NCBI GenBank assembly: GCA_944389215.1
Contig: CALXLN010000066.1
Span: 1 to 36,508 of the forward strand
Reading direction: 5' to 3'
DNA from: an uncultured Opitutales bacterium
GTDB lineage: Bacteria; Verrucomicrobiota; Verrucomicrobiia; Opitutales; Intestinicryptomonadaceae
DNA length: 36,508 bases
The first letter of the stretch is position 1; each line of letters begins with the position of its first letter. Of the stretch, positions 1 through 33,583 are shown one piece after another. The position numbers were made by a program, and so were the translations under genes. A model generated the notes under the pieces. It ran no database searches, was not told the DNA's origin, and was given only the letters and a program-made list of their open reading frames with translations.

Positions 1-1318
1 CTTTCTTCAGGCGGTTTTTCATGTCTTTAAGAAGTTTGCCGTGCGATTTGCCATAGGCTAAATTTTTTGTCTCGTCGGGATCTGAAGCCGTATCGTACAA
101 GAAATGCGCGCCTTGGGGCTTCCACCAGTATGCGCATTCCAATGCCGGCGAATCGGATTCTACGGCTGCCCGCCTAAAAGCGCGCCAACCTGCCTGTCCA
201 AAAGCGTAGTTTGAAACTATTAACGGCTGCCTGTAAGCGAAAAAGTTTCTAATGTAGCGCACATTGCCCGAACTTACCGCGCGGCTGAAATAAGTGCTTT
301 CGTCAAAACGCGCCGCAACCAGAAAAACCTCATCGCTCTTTCCGGAAATATCCATTCCCAAAAACGGCTTTCCGCACATTTGCTCAGGAATTTTTATTCC
401 CGCCAAATTTAGGATTGTCGGAGCCAAATCCGTAAAATCCACGGTGCGTTCGGAAATTTTTCCCGTCCGTCCAAAAGGATTCAAATGCTTTAACTTCTCA
501 GGAATATAAACTATTAGAGGAACTTGCGTGCCGTCCTTGTTAAGGTTGCGCTTTTGCCGGGGAAGAATGCCCCCGTGGTCGGAATAATAAAATATTATGG
601 TATTGTCCACCACTTCCCGTGGCTCTCTCATCAAATCGGAAATTATCTCTCCCACCCTTCTGTCCATCGCCTTTATGCAGTCGTAATACACGGCTATGTC
701 GCTTTTTATTTCGGGCAGAGGGGGAAGATACCCCGGTATATCCACACGCTCCGGATCGTTTTCAGGAATCGGGGGAATTATATTGCGGGCGCGGTTTCTT
801 GCAATTTTTTCGTCGAAAAGATTGCTTTCATGCGTCGTCTCTATGTTAAAAACGGCCAAAAACGGCGTATCCTTGGAAGGCCTGTTTTTAAAGTGCGCGG
901 TACGCCTGCATTCATCCCAAATAGACGCGTCGTTCATCCTTATATTGTAGTCTGTTTTCGCGGCGTTCGTGCAGTAATATCCGGCCTCTTTGAAATAAAC
1001 AGGATAAGGTTTGAACTTTGGCGGGACCGGATAGCGCGAACGCATATTGTGAGTTCCGAGAGTCGCCGCGTTTACGCCGGTGAGTATGGTCGACCTGGCA
1101 ACCGCGCAAACAGGGGCGTTGGCATAGGCGTTCATAAACACAAGCCCAGATTCGGCAAGCTTGCTTAAATTCGGCGCCGAGCACGATTTGTCGCCGTACA
1201 TGGGCATATATCTTGCGGAATTGTCCTCGCTGACAATCCACAGAATGTTCGGCTTGCCGGCAGATATGCAAGACAAGCCGCAAAGGCAACACCAGATAAA
1301 AAACGCAATCTTCGACAA
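1..1318 (-). CDS. Secreted formylglycine-dependent sulfatase (C-terminus cut by window edge)
   Basis: Hydrolyses sulfate esters, probably on a polysaccharide, in the periplasm or outside the cell. The reverse-strand frame is open from a TAA just upstream of 1318 to position 1, so the C-terminus lies outside the window. I take TTG at 1318 as the start because no ATG precedes the conserved core; it gives a hydrophobic leader (IAFFIWCCLCGLSC) before KPNILWIVSEDN, the first metal-binding segment. The active-site block APVCAVARSTILTG (about residues 69-81) has the Cys that would become formylglycine (about C71) and the following Arg (R75), but Val sits where Pro or Ala is usual. Further sulfatase motifs are TNAAKTDYN and YYSDHGG (metal Asp/His). 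It starts 12 nt after the stop of the upstream glycoside hydrolase, so the two are probably co-transcribed. The exact sulfatase subfamily and substrate cannot be read here. Confidence 0.9.
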   Translation of the reverse strand, partial: MSKIAFFIWCCLCGLSCISAGKPNILWIVSEDNSARYMPMYGDKSCSAPNLSKLAESGLVFMNAYANAPVCAVARSTILTGVNAATLGTHNMRSRYPVPPKFKPYPVYFKEAGYYCTNAAKTDYNIRMNDASIWDECRRTAHFKNRPSKDTPFLAVFNIETTHESNLFDEKIARNRARNIIPPIPENDPERVDIPGYLPPLPEIKSDIAVYYDCIKAMDRRVGEIISDLMREPREVVDNTIIFYYSDHGGILPRQKRNLNKDGTQVPLIVYIPEKLKHLNPFGRTGKISERTVDFTDLAPTILNLAGIKIPEQMCGKPFLGMDISGKSDEVFLVAARFDESTYFSRAVSSGNVRYIRNFFAYRQPLIVSNYAFGQAGWRAFRRAAVESDSPALECAYWWKPQGAHFLYDTASDPDETKNLAYGKSHGKLLKDMKNRLKK

Positions 1319-14296: not shown

Positions 14297-15028
14297 ATGA
14301 AATCCAAACCATACGCCCCTCCGCCACCCCCGCTGAAATCCGCAGATGAAGACCGCAATCTCTGCGCCCCGCAAAAGACTCCGCGCGCCGCAATAGTATT
14401 GTCGGGCTGCGGAGTGTTTGACGGCTCAGAGATCCACGAGGCCGTAATAGCGCTGCTCAACCTTCAAAAGCGCGGAGTGGAAACGGAATTCTTTGCGCCG
14501 GACACGGAACAAGCCGACGTTGTCAACCATCTCGACTCGATAGCCATGCAGCCCAGGCGCAATGCGCTTGTTGAATCGGCAAGAATCGCGCGCGGGCATA
14601 TCCGCCCGCTTGCAAAATACGACGCCGGGGAATTCGACCTGCTTTTGTTTGTCGGCGGATTCGGCGCGGCAAAAACGCTCTGCACTTTCGCCGCCGACGG
14701 CGCCGACTGCAAGGTAAACAAACATGTTGAAAGCGCAATAGTGGCAACGCTCGCAAAAAAGAAGGCGCTTGCGTTTATGTGCATAGCGCCCGTTCTGGCG
14801 GCAAAAGTCATAGGCAACGGAGTTCGCCTGACAATTGGGAACGACCCCTCAACCGCTAAAGCGCTGGAGGCTATGGGCGCAAAACACGTCGACTGCCCGG
14901 CAAACTCTTTTGTCGAAGACTCGTCAAAAAGAGTCTATTCCACCCCGGCCTATATGCTGGCGAAATCCACCCCCGACATAGACGCCGGAGTCGGAGCAAT
15001 GTTGGACGCAATATTAAAAAATGTTTAG
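14297..15028 (+). CDS. elbB: ElbB-like glyoxalase/DJ-1 superfamily protein
   Basis: A 243-residue protein of the DJ-1/PfpI superfamily resembling E. coli ElbB, described as a glyoxalase-like factor linked to isoprenoid formation. The family signature LSGCGVFDGSEIHEAV is present near residue 35, with FVGGFGAAKTLC and the nucleophile-type Cys in AFMCIAPVLAAKVIGNG (about C162). The start at ATG 14297 is supported by AAGGAAC shortly upstream; the frame runs back to 14258 without a better site. The first 27 or so residues are an unusual Pro-rich extension (PPPPPLK). The start of the next gene lies 8 bases inside this one. Enzyme activity is not proven for most members. Confidence 0.9.
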   Translation: MKSKPYAPPPPPLKSADEDRNLCAPQKTPRAAIVLSGCGVFDGSEIHEAVIALLNLQKRGVETEFFAPDTEQADVVNHLDSIAMQPRRNALVESARIARGHIRPLAKYDAGEFDLLLFVGGFGAAKTLCTFAADGADCKVNKHVESAIVATLAKKKALAFMCIAPVLAAKVIGNGVRLTIGNDPSTAKALEAMGAKHVDCPANSFVEDSSKRVYSTPAYMLAKSTPDIDAGVGAMLDAILKNV

Positions 15029-17453
15029 CGCAAACCGAAAACCGCGCGGCACGACGCCGTTATTTTGCGCGGCCGCGGCAATCGCCGCCGCGGCGCTCTT
15101 TTTTTGCGCGCGGGCGGATGCCGCCAAGCGCGACACCCGAATGCTGCCCGGAACGGTGTCGAACTTCGAGCTCCCCAATTTCAATGAAAACAGCGGAGCC
15201 AAGGAATGGGAGCTTTTCGGCGACAAAGCAACCTATATTTCCGACGAGCACATAGACATAGACAATATGAAGCTCAACCTTTTCGAAGGCGCGCAAAAGC
15301 CGGAATTGAAAGCTGTAATGACAAGCCCCAACGCGCAGGTAAACGCCGTTGCAAAGACGGTAACCAGCATGGATAAGATTTTTGTAAAGGGCGACGCATT
15401 CGACTTGAGCGGCAAAAAGTGGAAGTGGAACGGCGACAAAAAATTTATAGAAATATTTTCCAACGTAAAAATTGCCTTAAACTCCCGTGGAGTCCCCGAC
15501 ATAGACTCGGCAATTGGAAGCCGCGCCAAAGCAGACCCCCAAGAAAGCAGCCTCTCTAACGGAACCCAAAATAATAATCCGGACAGCTCTGCTACGGGAA
15601 AAAACGCGGCAGAAAAGAAAAACGCCGATAGTTCCGTAACCGATATTTTCTCGGACTACGCAAGCCTAGACCACGGCGGAAAGGCAAATAAATTCAATGT
15701 CAAAAAGAATGTCCGCGTAAGCAACGCAGACATGAAGCTCGAATGCGACGAACTTGAAGTGGATTCAAAGAAATCCGGCGCGGAAAAGATAGGCGAAATT
15801 CGCGCGCGCGGCAACGTTAGAATGTCGACAAACCTGCGGCGGGCGGCGGCAGGCGAGCTTCGCTTATTCCCCGCGGAAGCAAAAGCGGTTTTAACGCTTT
15901 CTCCGGAAATAGAGGATATACCGAGCAAGTCAAAGATATACGGCGGCAAAATTATACTCAACCGCAATGACAAATCAATAGTGTCCCTCCCATCCGAAGA
16001 CGGGAAAATCAGGCCAAAAACCATTCTCCATAACCCGCAAGACGAAAAGATGCGGCAGATAACCGTTCTCGCGGACGACATAAGGATGAAAAACGCCGAA
16101 GACGGCAAGAGCCTTTTTGAATTTAAAGGGCATGTAAAGGTTGAATCCGACGATTTTGAAGCGCGGTGCGACGTTATGACAGCAGAAGCCGACTCCAAGG
16201 CAGACGGGAAAGCGCAAATCTCAAAGATAGAGGGTTTCGGCAACGTAAAGGTCGTAACCGCAAGCGGAACCGCCCAATCCAAGAAACTTGAGATTATTCC
16301 CGCCAAGTCGGAAATTTTACTCCACGACAACGTAAAGCTGACCGACTCCAAGCGCGGATTCAATCTCAAGAGCAATACCCTTATTTTTGCAAGCGGACGC
16401 GACGAAGGCGTTGCGCTCGCGGACAACGGAAACAAAAACTCTTTCGTAATAACGGAGATTGCCGAGACCCCCACCGTGGGACAATTAGACGGAAAAAAAA
16501 GCGCCGCCGGCAGAAACAAAGCGGCAACCACAGTTGTAAAAAGCCGCTCGCTTTCATTCTCGCGCGACAGCGACGGAATAGCGGACCTGCATTTTCTCAA
16601 GGACGTGTCAATCAAATCCGCAGACATAGACGCGTCGTGCCAAAAGATGGATGTAATAGCCAAAACCGAAGGAAGCAGAACCAACATTTACAAGATTACA
16701 GCGTCCAAGGATGTAGTCGTAAAGCAGAAGGAAAATACCGCAACCGCGCAGCTAGCCAATATTTATCCGCGCGTAGGCGACGAAGATGCAAATGCTTCAA
16801 GCGGGAAAGACAACCAGTCCGGCAAACCAAAAATACACCGATTTGTGGAGCTTTTAACGGACGAGCAAAACTCTCCCGAAATCCTGCCTGCCATAATCCT
16901 GCCACCGTTGGGCAATATAGGCTTTAGCGACGAATATTCCGCAGGCAAAGTAAAACCTTCCCCAACGGTTATAACAAGCCGCAAGCAGTGGCTTACATCT
17001 TCTTCCGACGCCGACAAGTATTACTTCAAAGGCGATGTAAAAGTAACCGGCACCGATATGAACGCCTCTTGCGACGACATAGAAGTAACTATAAAGCCTG
17101 TCGCAAATCTTGCTGCAAAGAGCGCAGGCTCAAGCGGAGAGCGCGCCATTACGCACATAGCAATGACAGGCAATGTAAGGCTTGCGCAGGGGTTAAAAGA
17201 CGCAGCATGCGGGCGCGCCGACATACACGCGCTCGAAGAAATGGTCGTTCTTTCAAATTCGCCCGTGGTTAGAAACCGCGAAGACAACACCCGCGCCACA
17301 GGATTTAGAATAATCTACAACCGCGGCAAACAGACCGCCACGATAGAGGGCGAAGCTCCCTCAGCGGAACAAAACGCCGAAGACGAGGACAAAGACGAAT
17401 CCGCTCGCCCGACGGTCGTGCTGCCGCCGATAGGTTCATTCGACAAGAAGTAA
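15021..17453 (+). CDS. Very long LptC/OstA-repeat LPS-transport-type periplasmic protein
   Basis: An 810-residue secreted protein related to the LPS transport proteins LptC and LptA, which form a beta-jellyroll bridge across the periplasm. A hydrophobic signal/anchor (about residues 13-34) is followed by an LptC-like block: AKEWELFGDKATYISDEHID, KLNLFEG and ITSMDKIFVKGDAF-like strands. Then come about four OstA-type units, each with a D-x-A pattern and a central beta run: DYASLDHGGKANKF, DDIRMKNAEDGKSLFEFKG, SRSLSFSRDSDGIADLHF and SDADKYYFKGDVKVTGTD. Low-complexity Ser/Asn/Lys linkers join them. LptA itself is usually under 200 residues, so a single polypeptide of this size is unusual. The first bases overlap elbB by 8. 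No lptB ATPase or lptD is in the window. The C-terminus is acidic and Pro-rich. Confidence 0.82.
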   Translation: MFSANRKPRGTTPLFCAAAAIAAAALFFCARADAAKRDTRMLPGTVSNFELPNFNENSGAKEWELFGDKATYISDEHIDIDNMKLNLFEGAQKPELKAVMTSPNAQVNAVAKTVTSMDKIFVKGDAFDLSGKKWKWNGDKKFIEIFSNVKIALNSRGVPDIDSAIGSRAKADPQESSLSNGTQNNNPDSSATGKNAAEKKNADSSVTDIFSDYASLDHGGKANKFNVKKNVRVSNADMKLECDELEVDSKKSGAEKIGEIRARGNVRMSTNLRRAAAGELRLFPAEAKAVLTLSPEIEDIPSKSKIYGGKIILNRNDKSIVSLPSEDGKIRPKTILHNPQDEKMRQITVLADDIRMKNAEDGKSLFEFKGHVKVESDDFEARCDVMTAEADSKADGKAQISKIEGFGNVKVVTASGTAQSKKLEIIPAKSEILLHDNVKLTDSKRGFNLKSNTLIFASGRDEGVALADNGNKNSFVITEIAETPTVGQLDGKKSAAGRNKAATTVVKSRSLSFSRDSDGIADLHFLKDVSIKSADIDASCQKMDVIAKTEGSRTNIYKITASKDVVVKQKENTATAQLANIYPRVGDEDANASSGKDNQSGKPKIHRFVELLTDEQNSPEILPAIILPPLGNIGFSDEYSAGKVKPSPTVITSRKQWLTSSSDADKYYFKGDVKVTGTDMNASCDDIEVTIKPVANLAAKSAGSSGERAITHIAMTGNVRLAQGLKDAACGRADIHALEEMVVLSNSPVVRNREDNTRATGFRIIYNRGKQTATIEGEAPSAEQNAEDEDKDESARPTVVLPPIGSFDKK

Positions 17454-19922: not shown

Positions 19923-22900
19923 TTATTCAGTCGCAAACTTGAACCGCACAAACACCTGCTTGCCTTCAAACTGCGGAATCTCCACCGCGTAAATACGCGC
20001 AGCGGAAGTTATCTCAACAAGAGAAGGCGTCGCGGATACATCAGTCCAAGTCTTCATATCGGTGCTATACTGCACGCCGACTATGGCGTCTGTTACATAT
20101 ATCGCAACCGGATATTTAACAACCGTCGTTCCGGAAAGCGTCTTTGTTATGGAAACTCCGTTCTGCAAGGATGTCCCGCCGTTTGCAGCAAAAATGTATT
20201 TTTCAACATTTGTTACAACCGAACCGGACGCAATCTGGTCTCCCGAATCTGCCGCCAAACCGTTGGCTTCCGCCCATGTAGAATAAGTTTCACCCACGTT
20301 GAGTTTTATCTCGTCTGACGATGCGGAAACAACATTCGTTATCTCTCCGGAGTTATCCGTCTGAACTACGGACACCACGCAACGGTAAAGTTTGTCCGAA
20401 TCGAGATACGACGACTGTTTCGTGTAGGATACCGACGTTGCGCCCGATATGTCTTCCCAACCGTCGGAGTTGCCGTTTGAAGCCAATGTCGATACCGGCG
20501 CCGAAGTGTTTTTCTCCTGCCACTGGTAAGTCGCGTCCTTTGCGGAAGTCAAAACGCTCATCGTAACCGGCGTGCCGGACTTCACAAGCGTTGTCGGAGC
20601 ATCGGATTTTACTTTCACGGTTACAACCGCCAAGCCAGAATAGACATGCGATATTCCATTGTCCGCCTTGCAGTAGTACCCCACTCCGTTATCGGTAATA
20701 TCAAGAGTGTAAACGGTCATAGTCGGCCCGGTGAAATTGCTTAATTTGTACTCTTGTCCATTGCGGTATTCGTACCATTCATAAGTAATGTCGGGCTGCC
20801 CCTGAACTTCAAACGATATTGTAACATTGTCGCCTTCATAGACAGTCTGGGACTTTACATCCTCAACAACCTGAAGCGGCCACTGGACAACCAATTGCGC
20901 GCTGGCGACATTTTCCGCCGAAGTTTCAGGAGCTACAAACGGAGTTCCAGGATTGGAAACCACGCACGCATAAGTATCGCCGTTCTGCTCGTATTGGACA
21001 TTCTTGACTTCAAGCAACTCCGACTCGGCACCATCGACAAGAGTCCAAGTGGATTCACCCGCCCTCTTAACATACCATTTGTATGCCAAGGGGCCTTCTC
21101 CAGTGGCATTTGCAGTAAAGTAAGCCGCCTGGCCTACATTTACAGCCTGCACAAGAACCACTCCGCCCTCAGCCGGGAATCTAGCCTTTGCGTAAACCAC
21201 TATAGACATCGACCCAGTCGTTATAGACATCGCGCCGTTGCTTACAACGCAGCGGTAGACCGAGTTATGATCGTCAAAATCAAGCAAGTTTACCGTAAGC
21301 GAATTTCCGTCTATAATATACTTTGCGGGATCTCCTATCAGTTCCCAAGTGCTTGTCTCGAAGTCGTAGCGCTGCCATTGGTATGTCGTATCGGCGGTAA
21401 CATTGGATACGTCAAACGTTATGGTAACGTTTGAACCTTCGTAAGCGTATGTATAAGTCGGAACATTGGAAACGTTAATGGGATCTACAACAGTAAGAAC
21501 AGCCTCTCCATATCCGAACACCTCTCCGCGGTCGGATACTTCGCACCTGAATTTGTCGCCGCTCATTGATTTTGAAACGCTGGCTATTGTATAAGTCGAA
21601 GCCGTAGCGCCGGCAATGTCGTCGTAGGAATCCGTCGCCGAATTGTACTTCTGCCACTGGTACGACAATTCATTTCCGTTGGCGGATATGCTGAAGATTG
21701 CGGCAGACCCTTCGACTGCAAAGACATCTTCGCAGCTCTCTATAGACGGAACTACATAAATCTTTGTTATAATTTCGTCGGAAGTAGCAGAAGCTCCGCC
21801 GCCGCTTACAACGCACCGGAACGACGCATTATTGTATTGCGCCTGGGTTACATCTTTCAAAGTGAGCTTATTGTTTTCAATCAGCACCGAAGACGTAGCC
21901 ACTACATTGTTCCAAGTAGACGTGCCGTAATTGAACATTTGCCATAGATAATTGGCGCCTTCCGGAGCGTTCTGGACATCGATAAGTATTACGACATCCT
22001 CTCCGACATAACCTTCAACGAATTCCGGGCTGTCAATTATAATATTTTCAACAACCGTAAGAGTCGTTTGAGAAGATCCGAACACTACACCCCTGTCGGA
22101 CACTGTGCATTTGTAAATGTATCCGTTCATAGACGATGTCAAATTATCGACTGTGTAAGTGGCGGAAGTTGCAGACGGAATGTCTTCCCATTCCGAACCG
22201 CCGTCCTTAGACACCTGCCAAACATACGTCAGGCTTGTTCCGGTTGCCTCAACGAAAATGCTCGCACTGCCTCCGACAACTCCGGACACCTCTGCAGGAT
22301 ACGAAAGCGTCGGCTTTGGATAGACAACCACATTCATACCCGAAGTCGTTACCGTGTTGGCATCGCCCTCTACAGTGCACGAGAACACTGCATTCAGATC
22401 GTCGAGCGTAGCGGAATTGATAGTAAGCGAAGACCCTGAAATTGTATAACGCGGATTTGAAGTTACATCCACCCAAGTGTGCGTAGAATAATCAAAACGC
22501 TTCCAAATATACTTTGTAGTATCTGTGGCATTGGCGACGTCGAACTTCAGCACAATGGATTCTCCCTCTACACCTTCAACATATTCGGGCACATTGGAAA
22601 CGTCAATTCCCTTGAATACATTGAGAGTCATTTCGGCTGAATCAAAGAATACGTTTGCCGAATATACCAGGCATCTGAACTTCTGCCCGTTCATATCCTC
22701 CGCAACATTCGCGATAGCGTACACGGAAGAAGTGGCCCCTTCAATATCCTTATAGAAGCCGTCTTCGTATTTTTGCCACTGGTAGGACAGATTTTGTCCC
22801 GCAGCCTCGACAAACAGTTCCGCCGTTCCGCCGATAACCGCATTCACCGAAGTCGGGGCGTCTATAATTTCATTCTTGGCCAGAACATGCAGCACTGCGC

Positions 22901-25900
22901 CGTTTGTCGCCCCGGCGTATATATTGGAACCGTCCTCCGAAATAGACGTGAATTTGCAGCGGAAGATTGCATTATGCAAAGATTCATCAGCAACAAACCT
23001 CAGCACATTATCTTCAGAACCGGCCAATCCGGTAAAGTCGGTCCATGTGGCGCCCATATCATAGGATATCTGCCACTGATAGGACATATTGCCTTCCGTG
23101 CTGGCTTCGCAAACAAACTCTACAATCTCGCCGCTCACCTGTGTTTGCGGTTGCGGCTGAACATCTGCCACTACCGCCGCGCCAACGGACATCTTTGCAG
23201 CATTCGAGAATGCAACCCCGCCGGTATTCATAATATAGCAGCGGTACATATTTCCGTCCATACCATACGTCGATTGTACGGAATATGTCTTGGAATTTGC
23301 TCCGGAAATATCACTCCAACTATTGCCTCCGTCGGTTGACACCTGCCATTGAACGGTTTCTCTGCCGCAAACGTAGTCAACCGTAAACGACGCACCGGAT
23401 CCCTCTATAATTTCGATGCCATCCGGATGCTTGGTTATTACAGGCTGTTTCAAGACCTCCAATTTAACAGGCTCGGAATACACGACATTCCACACGCAAT
23501 CGGCAAATATGGATTCCTTAACAAAGTAGTTATAATACTTTATGCGGTACATGTTGCCGTTGAGATCCGGAGTTACCTCGTTAAACGACAGCGCATCTGA
23601 ATTTTCTCCGCTCAAATCCGACCATGTCGTTCCGCCGTCCGTCGATACCTGCCAAACGCTTGCGCGGGACAGCGTTATGTCGGTGGAAGGCGCTTCCGCT
23701 TTAGTTCCGTTTACGTAATATGTGTAAATGGTCTTTTGGAATTCATCGGACAATACCGGAACAGTAGCCGCCGCTTCAAAGACGACATTTCCGTAATACC
23801 CGGAAGAAACAGACACGGGCTGTTTGAGTATTTCAATCGGCGGCGTTGTTATAAGAGCCATATATTTAGTAACTATGCCTGTCGCGCCAGCGAATGAAGT
23901 CGAACTTAAGACACAGTTGGCATCTTCGTCGGTAACGCTGTCTTTTATATAGGTCTTATCAGTTGCGCCGTTTATTTGCGATTCGGTGTAAGTAAACGAA
24001 TTGTCTGTATTGCGCAATGGCTCACCGCTTTCCGGATCTACTGTAATCTTGCAAGCAGACCAAGAATAGGTCATATTATCAGGACCAATGTTTGTATTGA
24101 CAAACGTGGCGGGGCTGTTCGTTTGATCGAGGGAATCGTATTTGGAGGCAAATACCACCGTGTCCGTTGTGGCGTAATTAGCCATTCCCGTAATCAAAGT
24201 CATAGTGATGGGAGCTCCATTGACTGAATTCGAAGTGCCTTCTATGCGCGCGCCATAGAAGATTTGGCTTGTGCCGTAGCTTATTACGTCTTCCGCACTC
24301 AAGCTTATCTTGCATGTTGTGCTTGTCGTCGGAGCAAATTCCATATACTTGTTGCCAATCTGGCAGAAGTAGACCAAGCTTGCGCCAAACGGAGCCGAAA
24401 CCTTGAATGTCATTTCAACAGAGCTGCCGCGCGCAACCGTGAACGACTTCAGCGGTTCTACTATCTGCATTGAACTGTATATGTTAAGCTTGTATTCTTT
24501 AGACGTCGCTTTACTGTCCGCTCCGTTGGAAACAACGCAGCGATAAATCGCCGAAGACGTTACGGAATACAACGTCAATTTTGAAGTTCCTTCCTGCGTG
24601 GAAATTGAATTCCAAGTCTTGCCTCCGTTTGTGGAAGACTGCCATTCAAATACGAGATTCGACGTGTCGGACGGCGACGAAATAGTCGGCTCAATATACA
24701 CGGTTGAACCATAAACCGCATTTATCTCATATGCCGAGTCGTCTTCCTGGTTTATCGTTATCGAAACGGGATTTATAACGGTCAGATGAGCCGCAAGCGA
24801 CACCAAATCCACCTTGTCGGCAATCGAAGTCGCCACGCACCTGTACTGCGTGCCGCTATCGCCTTCAAGCGCCGTAATTTCGTATGTGCTCGATGTTGCG
24901 CCTTCAATATTGATCCAGTCCGAAGCGTTCGGCAGCAGCTTCTGCCATTGGTATTCTACATCTCCCGACACAACCACCATGAAAGAAACCTTGTTTCCTG
25001 CGTCGACGACCTGAGATTCGGGTTGGAACACTATTTTAGCGGCAGTGTCAACTGCAATCTGGCCTGACAGCGACTTTACCAAGTAATCAGGTGTAGACAT
25101 TACGCAGCGATACTTATAGCCGTTATAGGAAGCGGGAACATCTTCAATACGCAATGTTTGGGATGTCGCCCCCGATACGTCAATCCAACTCAAGCCGTTG
25201 TCGGACGAAACCTGCCATTGATAAGACAAAACTCCCGCGTAATTTTCAACCGAGAATTCCGCCGTTCCCAACCGCGTATCAGGATCCAATTCTACATTGC
25301 AAACCTCGGGAACAACCGCAATGGACTCGCCAACCGTCAAAGCTACTTTGTCGGTGTAAACTACCTGGGCGCGGTTTGAAATTTTGCAGCGATAGAGAAT
25401 GCCGCTTTTTTCTTCGCGCTGTTCCAGCAATTCTAAAGTGGAATTAGTCTCGGAGTCTATATCGACCCATTCGTTTGTCTCATAGCTGAACAATTGCCAT
25501 TGATACGCAGTGGGCTCGCTAGGATCAGATTCGCATACGACTTCAAATACTATGTCGGCACCGCCGGGAACTGTCGTATCTTGCGGAGCAGACTTAATTA
25601 CCAAAGCATCGATTACTTCCAACTTGAACGAATCGGACTGTATTTGTCCGTTATTGGTGGTTATCAAGCAACGATAGCTTGTGCCGCTGGAGGCCTTGGT
25701 AAGGTTAGAAAGCTGCAAAGTCGAGGCGTTTGCGCCGCCGATATTCGACCAAGCGCTTCCGTCAGGCGAAGACTGCCACTGGTATATTGCCGTGGGAACT
25801 TCAGCCACAGACAGTGTAAAGTCGCCGCCCACATACCCCTTGGGCATTGAAGTGAGAACTTCCGAAGGTTCTGCCACGACAACATTTGACGTCGACGAAA

Positions 25901-28900
25901 CAACTCCCATGCCGGCGTTGCTTACATAGCAGCGGTAGAGCCCGTTCGACGAGAGCTCGGAATCCAGAACCAAAACAGAGTCGTAGCAGCCTACAGATTC
26001 CCATTTTCCTGTTGATTCGTTATACTTCTGCCAATCGTAGGTTAAGTTTTTGCCTTCGGCCTCCACCGACAATGTTATGCTGTCGGCGCCTACATATGTC
26101 AAAATATCCGACTGCGGGCCGGCTTCAATTTCCACCGACGATTTCACGACCAAATTCGCGCTTGCCGAGAATACCTCCGAAGCCTCGTTGTACACGCGGC
26201 AGCGGAACATAGTATTTATATCGGTATACAAAGCTGTCGGAAGCGAGAGCTTGGATGTAGCCATTCCCACATAGCGGGAATCGGAAACTTTCAGCCATTC
26301 TCCGGACGAATAATCAAAATACTGCCATTCATAGCCGACCGCGCCTTCCGCAACAACTTCAAACTCGGCGGAATCTCCGGCCAATACTTCCTGAGTGGCG
26401 GGCTGCTTTGTTATCGAGATAACCGGACTTACGAACAATTCCACAACATTTGAAGACGACTTGCTACCCATTGTGGTCGTTGAATCGCATCTATATTTAT
26501 AGCCGTCCATAGACACCGCCAAATCGGACAGAACCAATTCGGTGGAAGTCTGTCCTTGCAATGCTTCCCAATTATTTCCTCCGTCTTTTGAAACCATCCA
26601 CTGTAGAGTTTGGTACTGGCTCATTGCGTTTGTTACGGAGAAGGTCGCCGAACTTCCTTCAAGAGCATTTATTTTTTCGGGCGAGACAACCGGCACCGGG
26701 AATACGCCCAACTGCATCTTCGGAGACGTTACCGTGAAATATCCGTTAGATACCTCGCAATAATACACCGAATTCATCAAGTTAGCGGAAACGTTTGTTA
26801 GCGTGAGCGTGCCTTCCTCCGCGGCGAGTATTTGCCATGATATTCCGTTATCGTAGCTTACATACCACGTATAAACTTTATTCTCGCCGCCCACATCCAC
26901 AGAGAATGTGGCCATATCGCCTTCAAACACCATTTGCGAACCGGACGATGAATTAAACGTCAACGAAGTGTGCACCGAAAGAGTTACGGGATTAGAAATC
27001 GCCGAACCACCTTTATTGGAAGCTATTACCCTATAAGAAACAGCGTTCATTTCCATTGTCGGAACAAACGTATGCGTCGAAGAATTTGAATTCGGAATGT
27101 CGTACCATACCGAAGATGTCAATGTAGTTTCGGCAAACTCATTTTTGCCGGCGCCGCATTTCGGGCACACCCAGTCGTCCGGCAAGTCGTTCCACTTTAT
27201 GGAATTACCCATATCGTCATACACATAATCGCATGTAGTTCCAGAATTGGAATCGGTTATATGCTTGCAAATGTGGGCGGTGTATTCTTCGGGTTCTTCA
27301 GTCCTTTGATACTGCCAGAGATATGTAATCGGCTCCTGGCCTTCCACGCCGACCGAAAGAGTGGTCTCAATCCCTTCGCCTACATGTATTACGCCGGTTG
27401 TCGTGCTTCCGTAATCAATTTGGCGCGTTATGACAACGGATTTGTAAATCCAAAGAATTGCCGGATCCGAATAGAACGGAATGCCCATGTAGTTGTATGC
27501 CACGCATCTGAATTGGGCGTTTAAGTATTCGTCCGTAGCAGTAAATGTAAGCGTTTCCGACTTATGGCTGCCGTCGGACGCCACAAAGTCAATCCATTCC
27601 CAGCCGTTAAACGAGTACTGCCATTTAAACGTTACTCCAGATTCGGGGCAGTAAGTCTTCACGGAGAATGTTACTTCTTCCCCTGTATATGCCTCGAATT
27701 TCTGCGGCTGCTCAATGAATGTTACGCCCTTTGAAACAGCCAGTGAAACTTGGTTTGTATTGAGGACTCCGCCGGGATACGAAATCTCGCAGTAATACAA
27801 CCATCCTTTCATATCATACTCCGCGCTGACCGTGTATGTTGGGGAATTTGAATTCGGTATGCTTATCCACGAAACTCCGCCGTCCGGGCTGTAATACCAA
27901 GTATACGTCAATTTTCCTCCGTTTACAACCACGTTGAATGAAGCATTGTCGCCTTCAATAACCGAAACGTCAACAGGCTGTTGAACTATTATCGGAGTGG
28001 GGCTTACAGTTAATGTGGCAACTCTGGAAGACACAGTCATCATGGATTCCGGAACGAGAGGATCGCTGGCGTTGGAAACCTCGCACATATACTTGTAGCC
28101 GTTGTAGCTGAACGGTATGTCGGTAAGCGTCAACGAGGAAGACGTCGCCCCGCTAATCGGCTGCATGTTTGCATCTGAGCCGTCCATCGAGACGTACCAC
28201 TGGTACGTTATCGGATTGGAGTTTTCAACCGACGCAATAACATTAAATGTGGCGGAACCATACAACCCTACACTCGCATCTGCGGGATTGTTTTCGTCCA
28301 AAATAATGGGAGCTCTTATATATAAATAGGCTACATTTGAATTTGTTGTGCCGTAACTATTTTTAATGACGCAACGGTATTGGGCGCCGTCTATTTTTTC
28401 GGAAGTTTCAGTATACGACGGCTCGTTTGCACCCGATATGTCCGTAAAGCTCTGTCCGTTGGTAAGCGAACGCTGCCACTGGTAGGTCATAGGCTCGGAA
28501 CCTACAGCTTCAACGGAGAAGACCACTTCTTCCGAGGAGCCCTCCGAAATATAAACATTTTTGGGCTGAGTTACTATATTGGGCTTTGTATATATATATA
28601 ATGTGGCAGATTTCGACGATTTATTCGCACCGGAGTGCACAACCTGGTTGTTTTCATCGTACACGGCGGACTGTTTGAAATTGAAAACGCAAGACGCTCC
28701 GTTAAACACTAAAGGATCATATCCAGTCGAGCCCAAAGTTCCCACCGGATAAGTTATTGTAACGACATTGTCTTCCGTACTAGCATCAACCGTAGAGAAA
28801 GAATACTCCGTATTTCCGGAATACGCCAGCATCTGGAAGTTGTAAACAAGAGGAGTATCTTTGTAACATATTACTTTTGCGGTAAACGTAAAATATCCGT

Positions 28901-31289
28901 CGAGAGAAGTCTCGCAATCCTCTGGTTCTTGGAGAACATAAAGAGTGAAATAGGCATACAACGGCGCGCTATCCGAGAACGTCGGAGTGCCGACCGCATT
29001 AAGCACAGCGCAGCGATAGAGCGTCTTGCCGTCGCGGGTATCCAGATTGTAGGCTGTTGTGAAGGTATAGTAATACACCCTGCCTTCTTCCGAATCAAAA
29101 TATCCCTTTTGGCCTTCGGTTACATCTGACCAACTGGCGCCTCCGTCTTTTGACACCTGCCAATAGGCGTCGATGGAAGTTCCGTTTTCAACAAGGCAAG
29201 TAAATGTGGCGTCGGTAGAACTTATGACAAGTTGCTCCTGCGGATTTGCCAAAATTACCGCGGGAACACCCACCACTACAGTTGCGGCGTTTGAAACAAC
29301 CGGAGTTGTTGTGAGAGGATTTGAAACTTCGCACCTAAAGAATTTACCTGAATATGTGGTATCGGCGACAAACTCGTATTGAGCAGAAGTGGCGCCCTCT
29401 ATCTTTGTCCATACGACGCCGTCTTCGGAAAAATACCATTGATACTTAAGGTTGCTGCCGGTGGCTTTTATGGAAACTATTGCTTTTTGCCCGTTGTTTG
29501 TTTTTACATCCTGCGGATGTTCTATGATTTGAACTTCGGACAATATATCCAACCTGTATTGAGCGGAGGACTTTTGGGCTTCGCCGGTGCCCGCAGTACA
29601 TTTATATATAAATGCGTTTTGGTTTTCAGCATCCCCTGCAATAAATGAATAAGTGTCGGAAGTGGCGCCGCTTATAGGATTAAAAGTAACGCCGCCGTCA
29701 GTGGATTTATACCATACAATAGGAGAAAGGGTGGTTGTAACTTTTAAAGTAACTGTATCGCCATTCTTGACATAATCGGGCGAGGAAATCATTTCCAAGA
29801 CGTCGGGTATATATTCCCATCCCAGCTCTTCGCTTACATACTGGGCTCCTGCAAGCGACTCTTTTCCCGTTGTCAGTTCCACTATATAAATGCACGAATC
29901 GTCCCCGGAGGCAGGCTTTTCTTTTATATAAATGTGGTCGCCGCCCATCTTATAGTTTTTAAAGAGCAATTTATTTGCCTGCCCTTTTATGCTGTCCGAC
30001 GTCTCAAAGGACTGGAAAGACACAACTTGGTTTGCGTCGTTGTCTCCAAAGTCTACGACCGCTATGGTCGGCGCCTTGCCCAAGCGCGAAATCCTAAGCG
30101 CGCCGAAGTTTTGCGAATTTCCGTTGAGCTCCAAAGTTCCGGCTATATTGTCGCATTCGTCCGAAGTACTTACGCCGCGCGAACTATAAACCGGCTCCGA
30201 GACCGGAGTTCGGAATTCAACTGCGGTATTTGATGGAACCTGGTCGGAATAATCGTATGTCAGAACGGCTCCCCGCTCTATTATCAAAGACGGATTTGCG
30301 TCGCTTATGACTGTAGCCCCGCCTTGTTTGGCGAATCTCACGTCTGTTGAAACTATCGCAGTTTTAAAAGTATTTGTGCCCGTGCCGCCGACAATTATCT
30401 TCGGATACGGCAAATATTTAATGACGGAATTAATCGATGTTACATCGGCCATATAGGAAAAGCCTTCCCTAAGCTCCAAAGTCTGGCCGGTTCCCAATAG
30501 AGTAGAGTTTATAACGAGATCTCCGCCGGTGTGGTATTTGTTAAAGGCTTTTGTGGTTTCAAACAGCATTCCGCTGGCTTTCAGCTCGGAATAAGTCAAG
30601 GTGCCGTCTGCGCCCTCGGAGTAGTCGGGCAAAGTAAGGTCGTCGGCGTTAATCGTGTTCCCGTCTACAAAAGTCATTACGCCTTGGGAATTATTCCAGA
30701 CTCCGGCCCGCTTATATTCGCCCGTCGCGCAGAAATTTAAATTTAAATTGACAAAAGTGTCTATATACTCCGACGCCCTGCTTGTGGGAGTGCTCGACGA
30801 AGCGGGCTCTAAAAACGCGCCGGTCGATCCCACCAGAGACTCGAGCCCTAGAAGGCCGAACCCGAAAGCCATGTATTGCGGATCGGAATTTACCATTATT
30901 TCAAGCGTTTTTCCGTCAATGGAAGAAAGCGTCGTGGGAATATTCCAGTGATTGTTGAAAGAAAAATACGACACTCTGATGGGAGCGTTTGTGCTGACTT
31001 CGTCGACATAAATATAGCGGTCCATATCGACGACAAGATCCGTATCGTGACCGCTTTGGGCGTTGTTCGACCTATACCCCAATCCGGTTCTATACAATAT
31101 GTTTTCGCCCTGTCCGGGAACGCCGTTAGTCCATCGGCCCTCGGCGCTCCAAACATTGCCGGCTCCGCCCAGCTTTACATCCTGAAATGCTTTTCGCTCG
31201 CTCTCTATGAACTCCGGAGTAGCGGCAATAGACGACAATTGCCAGACAACCATCGCCGCCAATAGTGTGTTGAAAAGAAATTTCTTCAT
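19923..31289 (-). CDS. Giant secreted protein with about 32 tandem Ig-like domains and a rubredoxin-like insertion
   Basis: A protein of 3,788 residues (roughly 400 kDa) from ATG 31289, where a signal peptide begins (MKKFLFNTLLAAMVVWQLSSIAA). The frame is open to 31433, but a promoter-like pair at 31358-31385 lies inside that extension, so the longer form is unlikely. About residues 1-500 are Gly/Asn-rich beta structure (NVWSAEGRWTNGVPGQGEN), like N-terminal regions of autotransporter-style surface proteins. About residues 500-3666 hold some 32 Ig-like units of 85-100 residues, each with a Y-x-W-Q core and a Y-R-C motif. The last 120 residues (from TYSTWAEANGL to FVRFKFATE) are a separate, non-Ig end domain. 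One repeat carries the rubredoxin-like insertion (27130-27280). Three consecutive two-domain modules (21186-22871) look like recent duplications. No transmembrane anchor or sortase signal was seen at the C-terminus. A surface adhesin or scaffold is the best guess; no substrate is known. Confidence 0.93.
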   Translation of the reverse strand: MKKFLFNTLLAAMVVWQLSSIAATPEFIESERKAFQDVKLGGAGNVWSAEGRWTNGVPGQGENILYRTGLGYRSNNAQSGHDTDLVVDMDRYIYVDEVSTNAPIRVSYFSFNNHWNIPTTLSSIDGKTLEIMVNSDPQYMAFGFGLLGLESLVGSTGAFLEPASSSTPTSRASEYIDTFVNLNLNFCATGEYKRAGVWNNSQGVMTFVDGNTINADDLTLPDYSEGADGTLTYSELKASGMLFETTKAFNKYHTGGDLVINSTLLGTGQTLELREGFSYMADVTSINSVIKYLPYPKIIVGGTGTNTFKTAIVSTDVRFAKQGGATVISDANPSLIIERGAVLTYDYSDQVPSNTAVEFRTPVSEPVYSSRGVSTSDECDNIAGTLELNGNSQNFGALRISRLGKAPTIAVVDFGDNDANQVVSFQSFETSDSIKGQANKLLFKNYKMGGDHIYIKEKPASGDDSCIYIVELTTGKESLAGAQYVSEELGWEYIPDVLEMISSPDYVKNGDTVTLKVTTTLSPIVWYKSTDGGVTFNPISGATSDTYSFIAGDAENQNAFIYKCTAGTGEAQKSSAQYRLDILSEVQIIEHPQDVKTNNGQKAIVSIKATGSNLKYQWYFSEDGVVWTKIEGATSAQYEFVADTTYSGKFFRCEVSNPLTTTPVVSNAATVVVGVPAVILANPQEQLVISSTDATFTCLVENGTSIDAYWQVSKDGGASWSDVTEGQKGYFDSEEGRVYYYTFTTAYNLDTRDGKTLYRCAVLNAVGTPTFSDSAPLYAYFTLYVLQEPEDCETSLDGYFTFTAKVICYKDTPLVYNFQMLAYSGNTEYSFSTVDASTEDNVVTITYPVGTLGSTGYDPLVFNGASCVFNFKQSAVYDENNQVVHSGANKSSKSATLYIYTKPNIVTQPKNVYISEGSSEEVVFSVEAVGSEPMTYQWQRSLTNGQSFTDISGANEPSYTETSEKIDGAQYRCVIKNSYGTTNSNVAYLYIRAPIILDENNPADASVGLYGSATFNVIASVENSNPITYQWYVSMDGSDANMQPISGATSSSLTLTDIPFSYNGYKYMCEVSNASDPLVPESMMTVSSRVATLTVSPTPIIVQQPVDVSVIEGDNASFNVVVNGGKLTYTWYYSPDGGVSWISIPNSNSPTYTVSAEYDMKGWLYYCEISYPGGVLNTNQVSLAVSKGVTFIEQPQKFEAYTGEEVTFSVKTYCPESGVTFKWQYSFNGWEWIDFVASDGSHKSETLTFTATDEYLNAQFRCVAYNYMGIPFYSDPAILWIYKSVVITRQIDYGSTTTGVIHVGEGIETTLSVGVEGQEPITYLWQYQRTEEPEEYTAHICKHITDSNSGTTCDYVYDDMGNSIKWNDLPDDWVCPKCGAGKNEFAETTLTSSVWYDIPNSNSSTHTFVPTMEMNAVSYRVIASNKGGSAISNPVTLSVHTSLTFNSSSGSQMVFEGDMATFSVDVGGENKVYTWYVSYDNGISWQILAAEEGTLTLTNVSANLMNSVYYCEVSNGYFTVTSPKMQLGVFPVPVVSPEKINALEGSSATFSVTNAMSQYQTLQWMVSKDGGNNWEALQGQTSTELVLSDLAVSMDGYKYRCDSTTTMGSKSSSNVVELFVSPVISITKQPATQEVLAGDSAEFEVVAEGAVGYEWQYFDYSSGEWLKVSDSRYVGMATSKLSLPTALYTDINTMFRCRVYNEASEVFSASANLVVKSSVEIEAGPQSDILTYVGADSITLSVEAEGKNLTYDWQKYNESTGKWESVGCYDSVLVLDSELSSNGLYRCYVSNAGMGVVSSTSNVVVAEPSEVLTSMPKGYVGGDFTLSVAEVPTAIYQWQSSPDGSAWSNIGGANASTLQLSNLTKASSGTSYRCLITTNNGQIQSDSFKLEVIDALVIKSAPQDTTVPGGADIVFEVVCESDPSEPTAYQWQLFSYETNEWVDIDSETNSTLELLEQREEKSGILYRCKISNRAQVVYTDKVALTVGESIAVVPEVCNVELDPDTRLGTAEFSVENYAGVLSYQWQVSSDNGLSWIDVSGATSQTLRIEDVPASYNGYKYRCVMSTPDYLVKSLSGQIAVDTAAKIVFQPESQVVDAGNKVSFMVVVSGDVEYQWQKLLPNASDWINIEGATSSTYEITALEGDSGTQYRCVATSIADKVDLVSLAAHLTVINPVSITINQEDDSAYEINAVYGSTVYIEPTISSPSDTSNLVFEWQSSTNGGKTWNSISTQEGTSKLTLYSVTSSAIYRCVVSNGADSKATSKEYKLNIYSSMQIVEPLKSFTVARGSSVEMTFKVSAPFGASLVYFCQIGNKYMEFAPTTSTTCKISLSAEDVISYGTSQIFYGARIEGTSNSVNGAPITMTLITGMANYATTDTVVFASKYDSLDQTNSPATFVNTNIGPDNMTYSWSACKITVDPESGEPLRNTDNSFTYTESQINGATDKTYIKDSVTDEDANCVLSSTSFAGATGIVTKYMALITTPPIEILKQPVSVSSGYYGNVVFEAAATVPVLSDEFQKTIYTYYVNGTKAEAPSTDITLSRASVWQVSTDGGTTWSDLSGENSDALSFNEVTPDLNGNMYRIKYYNYFVKESIFADCVWNVVYSEPVKLEVLKQPVITKHPDGIEIIEGSGASFTVDYVCGRETVQWQVSTDGGNSWSDISGANSKTYSVQSTYGMDGNMYRCYIMNTGGVAFSNAAKMSVGAAVVADVQPQPQTQVSGEIVEFVCEASTEGNMSYQWQISYDMGATWTDFTGLAGSEDNVLRFVADESLHNAIFRCKFTSISEDGSNIYAGATNGAVLHVLAKNEIIDAPTSVNAVIGGTAELFVEAAGQNLSYQWQKYEDGFYKDIEGATSSVYAIANVAEDMNGQKFRCLVYSANVFFDSAEMTLNVFKGIDVSNVPEYVEGVEGESIVLKFDVANATDTTKYIWKRFDYSTHTWVDVTSNPRYTISGSSLTINSATLDDLNAVFSCTVEGDANTVTTSGMNVVVYPKPTLSYPAEVSGVVGGSASIFVEATGTSLTYVWQVSKDGGSEWEDIPSATSATYTVDNLTSSMNGYIYKCTVSDRGVVFGSSQTTLTVVENIIIDSPEFVEGYVGEDVVILIDVQNAPEGANYLWQMFNYGTSTWNNVVATSSVLIENNKLTLKDVTQAQYNNASFRCVVSGGGASATSDEIITKIYVVPSIESCEDVFAVEGSAAIFSISANGNELSYQWQKYNSATDSYDDIAGATASTYTIASVSKSMSGDKFRCEVSDRGEVFGYGEAVLTVVDPINVSNVPTYTYAYEGSNVTITFDVSNVTADTTYQWQRYDFETSTWELIGDPAKYIIDGNSLTVNLLDFDDHNSVYRCVVSNGAMSITTGSMSIVVYAKARFPAEGGVVLVQAVNVGQAAYFTANATGEGPLAYKWYVKRAGESTWTLVDGAESELLEVKNVQYEQNGDTYACVVSNPGTPFVAPETSAENVASAQLVVQWPLQVVEDVKSQTVYEGDNVTISFEVQGQPDITYEWYEYRNGQEYKLSNFTGPTMTVYTLDITDNGVGYYCKADNGISHVYSGLAVVTVKVKSDAPTTLVKSGTPVTMSVLTSAKDATYQWQEKNTSAPVSTLASNGNSDGWEDISGATSVSYTKQSSYLDSDKLYRCVVSVVQTDNSGEITNVVSASSDEIKLNVGETYSTWAEANGLAADSGDQIASGSVVTNVEKYIFAANGGTSLQNGVSITKTLSGTTVVKYPVAIYVTDAIVGVQYSTDMKTWTDVSATPSLVEITSAARIYAVEIPQFEGKQVFVRFKFATE
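21186..22871 (-). repeat. Three tandem A-B Ig-domain modules inside the giant gene
   Basis: Six consecutive Ig units alternate between two types. Type A (NEIIDAPTSVNAVIGGTAEL, TLSYPAEVSGVVGGSAS, SIESCEDVFAVEGSAA) has the short WQKY/WQVS core and GATxSxY loop. Type B (IDVSNVPEYVEGVEGES, IIIDSPEFVEGYVGED, INVSNVPTYTYAYEGSN) has a longer N-terminal strand and WKRF/WQMF/WQRY. The period is about 187 residues (about 560 bases), repeated three times: duplication of a two-domain unit rather than of single domains. Confidence 0.7.
27130..27280 (-). other. Rubredoxin-like metal-knuckle insertion in an Ig-like repeat
   Basis: Within the ninth or so Ig unit, between the core strand ITYLWQYQRT and the resumed VWYDIPNSNSS, lies a segment with NDLPDDWVCPKCGAGKNEF, the classic second half of rubredoxin (CPxCGxGK). 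Its first half is CDYVYDD preceded by another Cys. The four cysteines are about C1341, C1353, C1375 and C1378 of the protein. The first pair is spaced 11 residues apart instead of the usual two, so the first knuckle is altered. Rubredoxins bind one iron (or zinc) through four Cys; metal binding here is inference. Confidence 0.75.
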
Positions 31290-31348
31290 TGGGTATCTAA
31301 TTAAAGTGCTGTTTTCGGGCACAATAAGCCCTTGTATATAAAAAGTCT

Positions 31349-31385
31349 TTACCGGTAATCCTACATTCAAGACCGTCTTCGTCAA
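31349..31385 (-). promoter_or_regulatory. Promoter-like pair for the giant gene, with a small palindrome at the start site
   Basis: On the minus strand TTGACG (31380-31385), a 16-base spacer and TAGGAT (31358-31363) form a good sigma-70-type pair. Transcription would start near 31350, leaving about 60 bases before ATG 31289. TTACCGGTAA (31349-31358), a perfect 10-base palindrome, overlaps the -10/start area and could be an operator; that is conjecture. Confidence 0.45.
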
Positions 31386-31462
31386 CGCATTTTTCTCACT
31401 TTTTTTAACCGCCGAGAAGGAATTTTTTGGCAAAGGAACGGCTTGGCAAAAATTTATAAAAT

Positions 31463-31491
31463 TTGTCTGGATTTTTGGGAGCAGTTAAAAT
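31463..31491 (+). promoter_or_regulatory. Promoter-like pair for exbB-exbD-tonB
   Basis: TTGTCT (31463-31468), a 17-base spacer and TAAAAT (31486-31491) match a sigma-70-type promoter. The predicted start, near 31498, lies less than 20 bases before ATG 31515. It sits back to back with the giant gene's promoter. Confidence 0.4.
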
Positions 31492-31514
31492 TTACTAGTG
31501 TCGATTCTATAGCT

Positions 31515-32348
31515 ATGCCACACTTAACAATTTTTTCATCATCTTCGGTTACCGATTATTTTGCCCAGTCAAACCTTGCCGGACAAATAATAGTGCTCTT
31601 TCTGCTGGCTTTCAGCGTGCTGGCGTGGGGAGTTATGTTTTGCAAAAATTCCGACTTGAGCGCAATGGATTCGTCAAATAAAGAGACCATGCGCAAGATT
31701 TCAAAATCCGCCTCTCTGATAGAAGCGGCCGCGGCAAAATCGTTGCACGGGCCATACGCGGTCCTCTTGCGCGACGCAGTCGAAGCATGGGGAAGATTCG
31801 GAATGGGGGCCGAAATGTCCGAAAGCGATAGAACCGCGCGCGCGAACTATGTTGAGAACTCTCTTCAACGCGCGATATCCAAGCAGATAGTCCGCTACGA
31901 GTCGAAAATGGTGTGGCTGGGTACAATCATAAGCGGCGCGCCATTCTTGGGGCTGCTGGGCACGGTGTGGGGCGTAATGGACAGTTTCGGTTCCATGAGC
32001 GCCCAAACTTCAGTTACGCTTCAGCAGCTTGCTCCCGGCGTTGCGGGAGCGCTGCTCACGACCGTCGCCGGCCTTCTGGTGGCTATTCCCGCCGTATTCG
32101 GATACAACTACCTTACTTCGCGGGCGCGGACGATGTCGGCGGAATTGGAAAACTTTGCCAGCTTGTTGGCGGACAGAATAGAACTTGAATCACGCGAAGC
32201 TTCGCTTGCGGAATCGCGGCAACCTACGGTGGAACGCCGGCCCGTGATGGCTTCAAAAGTAGAGGAAACTCCGCATCAGACAAAGGTTATAAACTTTTCG
32301 CTCGACGACGACGATGACGGCCCAACTCCCTTGAGAGATTTCGAATAA
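31515..32348 (+). CDS. exbB: ExbB/TolQ-family proton channel subunit
   Basis: Inner-membrane subunit that with ExbD turns the proton gradient into energy for TonB-dependent outer-membrane transport. From ATG 31515 it has 277 residues: a first membrane helix (about 21-43, AGQIIVLFLLAFSVLAWGV), a cytoplasmic domain, and two more helices (about 135-160, LGTIISGAPFLGLLGTVWGV, and about 175-205, GALLTTVAGLLVAIPAVFGY). GLLGTVWGVMDSF is the family signature. The frame extends to TTG 31443, but the first 24 residues are not family-like and the promoter pair lies inside them. A charged tail with a DDDDD run ends the protein. ExbB and TolQ are hard to separate by eye; exbD and tonB follow at once, and no tolB or pal is seen. 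Confidence 0.9.
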   Translation: MPHLTIFSSSSVTDYFAQSNLAGQIIVLFLLAFSVLAWGVMFCKNSDLSAMDSSNKETMRKISKSASLIEAAAAKSLHGPYAVLLRDAVEAWGRFGMGAEMSESDRTARANYVENSLQRAISKQIVRYESKMVWLGTIISGAPFLGLLGTVWGVMDSFGSMSAQTSVTLQQLAPGVAGALLTTVAGLLVAIPAVFGYNYLTSRARTMSAELENFASLLADRIELESREASLAESRQPTVERRPVMASKVEETPHQTKVINFSLDDDDDGPTPLRDFE

Positions 32349-32349
32349 T

Positions 32350-32760
32350 ATGAAATTCAGGACCAGAAGCGGTTTGTCCGCAATGACAGAGCTCAACGTT
32401 ACGCCGCTCATGGACTTGGCGTTTTCGCTGCTCATCATATTCATGATAAGCACTCCGTTATTGGAGCAAACCATTCCCATTGACCTTCCGAAGCAGGAGG
32501 AAAATCCGTCCAGCGCGCGGCCGGAAATAGAATTCCAAGTAATATCTATCAACGCCAAAGGGCAGATATACTGGGGAAAACAGCCTGTCGACATGGTTGA
32601 GCTAAACAGCCTGCTGGAATCAATGTCCAAGATGCCGAATCCTCCGGCGATAAGCTTCCGCGGAGATTTCAGCCTGCCGTACCAAAAGATAGTAGACGTA
32701 ATAGACGCCATCAAGAGGCACAATCTCACAAAATTGCATTTGGATACTGAAGTGCGGTAA
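32350..32760 (+). CDS. exbD: ExbD/TolR-family proton channel subunit
   Basis: A 136-residue partner of ExbB with a single membrane helix (about 19-37, PLMDLAFSLLIIFMISTPL). The helix holds the proton-carrying Asp (in PLMDLAF), preceded by the SAMTELNVTPL segment shared by ExbD and TolR. The periplasmic part (about 45-136) has beta-rich INAKGQIYWGK and ends with a helix and strand region. It starts one base after exbB, implying co-translation. Size is normal for the family. Confidence 0.93.
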   Translation: MKFRTRSGLSAMTELNVTPLMDLAFSLLIIFMISTPLLEQTIPIDLPKQEENPSSARPEIEFQVISINAKGQIYWGKQPVDMVELNSLLESMSKMPNPPAISFRGDFSLPYQKIVDVIDAIKRHNLTKLHLDTEVR

Positions 32761-32767
32761 ACCGAAT

Positions 32768-33583
32768 ATGGCCGAAGACAATACAAAGTTGGGTTTTTCT
32801 TACTCGGTTGCCTTGCATTTAGGAGTAGCGATAGCCGCCATCGTATCGGTATTCGTGTCTTCCCTTTGGAGGGATGACGATATAGAGCCTCCCCAACCGT
32901 TTGAGTTGGTCGAGCCCCCGCCCGAACAACCCGCGCCCGAAACGCTTGCGCCCGAACCATCCTCGCAAATACTCCAGCCCAAGGTCGACAAAATAGATCC
33001 TTTGGACTTGCCAGAGCCGCAGCCCGAACCAGAGCCCGAGCCGCAGCCCGAACCGCAACCCGAGCCGCAGCCCGCAGAGCCCGCGCCCAAACCGCAACCA
33101 AAGCCTACTCCAAAGCCCACCCCAAAACCTAAACCGAAAAAAGTATCCTACGCCGATTTTATCAAGGAAAACCCCAAGGTAAACCGCCACACCCAGACGC
33201 GCACCGCTCCGCGAAAGCCAGTAGTTGCGCCAAAAATAAATGCGGTAACCACCGCCATTCAAAACATCGCCACAAACAAAAGCACCAATTACCAAAATTC
33301 GGCGGCTTTTGCGAACGCCAAACAGGCTTACTTGCAACTTATACACTTCACAGCAAAGCACAACTGGATTGCGCCTGAATCCACCGCGGGAATGTCGTTT
33401 TCGGCAAGAATAGCGTTTAATTTAAGCAAGTCGGGCGGAATAAGCAATGTAAGAATAATACAAAGCAGCGGCAACGCCGATTTCGACAAATCCGTAATCG
33501 CCGTTTTCAACAATATCACCCTTCCGCCTCCTCCGGAAGGTCTGGGAGAAACAATCACTTTGACGTTTAAAACGGAAATTTAA
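32768..33583 (+). CDS. tonB: TonB-like energy-transducing protein
   Basis: A 271-residue inner-membrane-anchored protein that would span the periplasm and pull on outer-membrane transporters. One helix (about 12-34, SVALHLGVAIAAIVSVFVSSLW) precedes a rigid Pro-rich spacer of Pro-Glu, Pro-Gln and Pro-Lys pairs (about 40-125). The TonB-type C-terminal domain (about 175-271) has HFTAKHNWIAPESTAG, FNLSKSGGISNVRIIQSSG, FDKSVIAVFNN and LPPPPEGLGE. The simple Pro repeats could vary in copy number. The reading frame opens 7 bases after exbD, completing an exbB-exbD-tonB operon. TolA is an alternative, but the C-terminal pattern favours TonB. Confidence 0.9.
   Translation: MAEDNTKLGFSYSVALHLGVAIAAIVSVFVSSLWRDDDIEPPQPFELVEPPPEQPAPETLAPEPSSQILQPKVDKIDPLDLPEPQPEPEPEPQPEPQPEPQPAEPAPKPQPKPTPKPTPKPKPKKVSYADFIKENPKVNRHTQTRTAPRKPVVAPKINAVTTAIQNIATNKSTNYQNSAAFANAKQAYLQLIHFTAKHNWIAPESTAGMSFSARIAFNLSKSGGISNVRIIQSSGNADFDKSVIAVFNNITLPPPPEGLGETITLTFKTEI

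Follow-up and report, generated by a model that had tools for sequence, protein, structure and literature searches.

Rubredoxins are known as electron carriers of the cytosol or as terminal modules of cytosolic enzymes. Complete rubredoxins have also been engineered into the intracellular loops of G protein-coupled receptors, for example CCR5 (4mbs) and the apelin receptor (5vbl), so that an entire domain is accommodated by an unrelated scaffold. In the open-access literature, we found neither a natural rubredoxin situated in an immunoglobulin-like (Ig) domain nor an exported rubredoxin of such kind; with this scope, the absence is weak evidence. Here, we analyzed a stretch of 36,508 nucleotides from an uncultured Opitutales bacterium (contig CALXLN010000066.1, referred to as the window), in which a rubredoxin domain and Ig repeats are encoded in a single reading frame.

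Table 1 Features of the window considered in this study.
Feature	Position	Strand	Basis and remarks
Giant Ig-repeat protein gene	19923..31289	-	ORF translation, orthologue comparison; ~3,788 aa
Ig repeat carrying the insertion, residues 1333-1489	26967..27437	-	Repeat HMM, AF2, VIA-align
Rubredoxin domain in the C-C' loop, residues 1384-1435 (approx.)	27129..27284	-	PF00301, phmmer to PDB, fold match
Expanded first knuckle C1389-x11-C1401	27231..27269	-	Alignment and rubredoxin comparisons; nine residues longer than compared rubredoxins
Second knuckle C1423-P-K-C1426 (CPxCG)	27156..27167	-	Sequence, alignment
exbB	31443-32348	+	Divergent neighbour of the giant gene
exbD	32350-32760	+	exbB-exbD-tonB block spans 31443..33583
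tonB	32768-33583	+	exbB-exbD-tonB block

A rubredoxin domain in the C-C' loop of an Ig repeat

The insert, YTAHICKHITDSNSGTTCDYVYDDMGNSIKWNDLPDDWVCPKCGAGKNEFAE, lies inside one open frame on the minus strand, where the preliminary description had correctly located and read it. Its cysteines are residues 1389, 1401, 1423 and 1426 of the giant ORF, encoded at 27267-27269, 27231-27233, 27165-27167 and 27156-27158, respectively. The Pfam rubredoxin profile (PF00301) matches residues 1400-1433 with an E-value of 2.4e-7 and 31.1 bits (curated cutoff 23), and the insert also exceeded this cutoff, with 32.6 bits, in a genome-wide scan. The NCBIfam rubredoxin model aligns with residues 1383-1434 (E=5e-9), yet stays under its own full-length cutoff. 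A phmmer search against the PDB returned rubredoxins and rubredoxin fusions, with the Clostridium pasteurianum rubredoxin 4rxn at the top (E=3.3e-9). In a separate comparison, 27 of 41 residues are identical to one cytosolic rubredoxin. A MAFFT alignment of 25 rows was built from the window insert, the insert of an orthologous protein (MAG CALXNZ01, referred to as G007) and 23 rubredoxins of viral contigs; the latter were taken from 54 loci obtained with a DNA pattern; a strict peptide query of viral contigs had matched nothing. All nine invariant columns (9/9) are retained in the window insert, including the four cysteines, each of which aligns with a ligand position. A chance resemblance is ruled out by the profile, phmmer and alignment evidence. 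The earlier notion of a "rubredoxin-like knuckle" was thus right about the rubredoxin likeness and too narrow about its extent, because the insert comprises a whole rubredoxin domain instead of a single knuckle.

The two knuckles of this domain differ in their preservation. The second one is present as CPKC, whereas the first one reads C-x11-C instead of CxxC, which substantiates the unusual spacing reported before. The nine extra residues between the first two cysteines occur in the window sequence alone among the 25 aligned rows; the other rubredoxins extracted from the genus have a CxxC first knuckle, and C-x11-C is peculiar to the window species. In addition, Asp replaces Gly after the second cysteine (CG to CD), a change also seen in natural rubredoxins of viral contigs. 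The window insert is therefore homologous to rubredoxins but, with its non-canonical first knuckle, not itself a canonical rubredoxin. The phmmer alignment with 4rxn draws a different register: C1389 takes the place of the second ligand (YTAHIC opposite YTCTVC), and C1401 becomes an extra cysteine. This register is less likely, because the Pfam match, which begins at residue 1400, has C1401 for its second ligand, because MAFFT aligns all four cysteines, and because the offset between predicted model and known structure, described below, sets C1389 on the first ligand. Among the viral-contig rubredoxins, one (L082, IMGVR_UViG_3300029705_003024, 607-635) has its first knuckle cut to CPCG (CxC instead of CxxC).

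The position of the insert was defined with a repeat HMM built from 86 repeats or half repeats of three orthologous giant proteins. Both halves of the host repeat match this HMM and are split at model position 38-40, which places the insertion after strand C (YLWQ) and before strand C' (VWYDI); the corresponding strands of the profile, derived from the Ig repeats of the three orthologues, are YQWQ and WxDI. In the other repeats of these proteins, the C-C' loop comprises 7-10 residues in 76 of 80 measured loops and 14 to 24 residues in the remaining four, while the rubredoxin-bearing loop has 67 residues in the window protein and 69 in the G007 orthologue. The C-C' placement proposed in the preliminary description is right, and the lengths mark this loop as the place of extra material in the protein family, with the rubredoxin as the extreme case. 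A second C-C' insertion, MDTNADGTVNIVNGEIQW, was observed in the G007 giant protein (L044) in the repeat at residues 2320-2420; by eye it has the look of a calcium loop of the dockerin/EF-hand type, and the C-C' loop may accordingly host other metal motifs.

Structure prediction was performed for both parts of the chimera. With Ig repeats as alignment, AF2 modelled the Ig part with a pLDDT of about 95, mostly 95 or more, and the best structural matches of the host repeat in VIA-align were Ig domains, namely a phage N4 decoration protein, titin and MALT1 (Z up to 12.9). The closest of these is the phage N4 capsid Ig-type protein 9e99_K (Z 12.9, 1.6 A, 27% identity over 90 residues). The host repeat hence combines the Ig fold with the profile match of the Ig_3/I-set family, and its fold is predicted to stay intact around the insert. 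The pLDDT of the insert was 50-78 in the run with Ig rows only and rose to 85.9 with an alignment of 23 real rubredoxins, which gave a model of 64 residues with terminal strands at 4-10 and 54-60; being guided by rubredoxin rows, this model is not an independent proof of the rubredoxin fold that it adopts. All top rows in VIA-align were rubredoxins; the superposition on 6rxn has a Z of 7.1 and an rmsd of 1.1 A and covers 44 of its 45 residues. A Z of 7 is modest, as expected at 64 residues. The rows listed by Foldseek were rubredoxins, rubredoxin fusions and rubredoxin-bearing enzymes with weak E-values for this 64-residue model (0.008 at best). Model range 5..57 is aligned to residues 1..52 of the 6rxn chain, so that model residue 5 falls on chain residue 1, C1389 on the first ligand, and nine model residues are left over, which is the length of the extra stretch. 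By these offsets, the four cysteines are predicted to gather in the rubredoxin ligand positions, with the nine extra residues probably looping out of the first knuckle.

The carrier protein, its orthologues and the origin of the insert

The mechanical ORF of the giant protein (19923..31433, minus strand) comprises 3,836 aa and begins with TTG. Its likely start is MKKFLFNTL at residue 49 (window position 31289), followed by a signal peptide; both were recognised by eye in the sequence and are common to the orthologues. The signal peptide is followed by an N-terminal beta domain, about 30 Ig repeats (Pfam Ig_3, 9e-65) and a C-terminal domain; a surface location is presumed. Nearly every Ig repeat of the protein (window 19923-31289) has a lone cysteine in strand F and none in strand B, so that the canonical disulfide between these strands is absent from most repeats. 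The rubredoxin-bearing repeat is among the few without the F-strand cysteine and has Val at this position; in the corresponding host repeat of the G007 orthologue the cysteine is kept.

Each of the three species with the giant gene has an exbB-type gene as its divergent neighbour. The flanks of exbB were also read in twelve other relatives, and no giant Ig frame was found there. Elsewhere in the window (15021-17453), a single protein of 810 aa is a fusion of LptC with LptD_N/LptA-type domains.

Searches with PF00301 and with a two-row Ig and rubredoxin profile detected a rubredoxin in a giant frame in 2 of 373 genomes of the order, namely the window genome and G007, which is likewise from an uncultured Opitutales bacterium and whose giant frame comprises 3,298 aa. 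The G007 protein carries LICRNCGYYTTDFNEWDQLPETWTCPTCGQLKNTF at the equivalent site, the C-C' loop of the corresponding repeat, and its four cysteines have the canonical CxxC...CxxC spacing. Given also the significant profile match and the predicted ligand positions of the window cysteines, none of the three refuting conditions named in the preliminary description applies. A third orthologue (G013) has an ordinary short loop there and no rubredoxin. Further chimeras of this kind were not found in the class sample beyond the window, and the best matches, to which the listing for the phylum sample was confined, are all in frames under 500 aa, so that weak hits in giant frames would have escaped it.

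Overall identities of the giant proteins are 34% (window-G007), 35% (window-G013) and 38% (G007-G013). Because G007 shares no more identity with the window protein than with G013, a later gain would be no more likely than a single gain before the split, followed by loss in G013. Both inserts keep the rubredoxin core P, W, CP, CG, K, N and F; the chance of keeping nine given residues at a background identity of 0.34 is about 6e-5, a rough value that assumes independence. The inserts are identical at 17 of 39 positions and are no closer to each other than each is to cytosolic rubredoxins. That both occupy one particular loop of one repeat among about 30 nevertheless favours a single capture event over two independent captures.

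The window genome also encodes a stand-alone rubredoxin (L001), next to what we take to be a flavodiiron-type protein, and a rubredoxin fused to a presumably ThDP-dependent, acetolactate-synthase-like enzyme (L002), both neighbour and enzyme being named by eye. L002 (G000:C2, 1-1620, minus strand) is an enzyme of ~600 aa with an N-terminal short-loop rubredoxin, conserved across the family and present in most of its genomes. As sources of the insert, the stand-alone and the ThDP-fused rubredoxin are not separable on about 40 residues.

Probable metal site and alternative readings

We consider it likely, with a probability of about 0.72, that a complete rubredoxin domain was grafted into the C-C' loop of an Ig repeat of a giant Sec-exported protein and is displayed on this scaffold, most likely with a (Cys)4 zinc or iron site. 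The termini of a rubredoxin lie near each other on one short sheet, which, as far as prediction goes, would allow the insert to ride the loop as a side domain with the Ig fold undisturbed. The four cysteines would most probably coordinate a single ion, Zn or Fe; this metal would fold and stiffen the side domain, so that the module protrudes from one fixed position of a long Ig rod, presumably outside the inner membrane. The site is canonical in the sister species; in the window species the first knuckle has gained nine residues, with which tetrahedral metal binding should persist but one face of the site would be perturbed. Judged from sequence and model, metal binding is likely, and a structural or binding role seems more plausible than an electron-carrying one. 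Adhesion, redox sensing and cross-linking, the roles suggested in the preliminary description, would be candidates. Rubredoxin made in E. coli takes up Fe or Zn according to supply, whereas the native host loads iron only (PMC7700505). An exported copy would presumably be filled after translocation, and zinc would thus be as likely as iron.

A natural extracellular rubredoxin could instead hold a redox-active Fe(Cys)4 centre at a fixed rod position and serve redox or iron sensing at the cell surface or electron exchange with the outside, the expanded knuckle tuning potential or partner. The predicted rubredoxin fold with all core residues, the canonical site of G007, the divergent ExbB-ExbD-TonB genes next to the giant gene and the iron-only loading in the native host are all consistent with this. 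We nevertheless regard it as unlikely: the scanned neighbouring genes include no cytochrome, flavoprotein or reductase, and exbB-type genes occur in the genus also without an adjoining giant gene and are therefore not specific partners. The nine extra knuckle residues would probably alter the exposed cysteine ligands, which are the usual electron path, and the metal chosen outside the cytoplasm would depend on supply. Decay of the domain is improbable as well, given that all four cysteines and all invariant core residues persist in an intact reading frame and that the insert is still near cytosolic rubredoxins. A working rubredoxin captured once, with its metal binding now fading in the window species and the domain kept merely as a loop, would however account for a C-x11-C unique among the compared rubredoxins, for the change of CG to CD and for the third orthologue without the domain.

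Exported proteins frequently have disulfides, and CxxC pairs can be oxidised. The insert might on these grounds be an exported knob whose cysteine pairs are oxidised and not metal-bound, which we consider very improbable. The search for oxidising factors covered DsbA and VKOR; neither was matched in 19 family genomes, and both gave matches in control genomes. Together with the mostly single cysteine per Ig repeat, this absence suggests that exported thiols may stay reduced in this lineage, which would suit the preferred reading of a metal-bound rubredoxin side domain.

Comparison with known systems

The insert resembles rubredoxins of PF00301 (4rxn and the short-loop protein of Desulfovibrio desulfuricans, 6rxn) in its four cysteines, the LPDDWVCPxCG motif, the conserved K and F and the predicted fold, and its central loop is short as in 6rxn. 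Known rubredoxins stand alone or form part of a cytosolic enzyme; the insert, by contrast, sits in an exported Ig domain and has C-x11-C with Asp after the second cysteine. The ThDP-enzyme fusion of the same genus shares the short loop and an identical spacing after the second cysteine, but there the rubredoxin is terminally fused to a cytosolic enzyme and has a canonical CxxC. The host repeat, in turn, has the Ig fold of the Ig_3/I-set repeats of giant exported proteins, 9e99_K, titin and MALT1, and differs from them in carrying a 67-residue rubredoxin loop in place of 7-10 residues.

Rubredoxins and Ig repeats are each well known, and their natural chimera is rare within the order (2 of 373 genomes). 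Being small, natural and exported, the inserted domain lends itself to testing if thiolate metal sites assemble and persist outside the cytoplasm, and the canonical G007 and the enlarged-knuckle window orthologues form a pair for probing the tolerance of the rubredoxin site. A parallel is provided by the receptor-rubredoxin constructs mentioned above. Those are man-made crystallisation aids, whereas the Ig-loop rubredoxin is natural and common to two species: a metal module domesticated in nature as an insertion domain, as crystallographers do deliberately.
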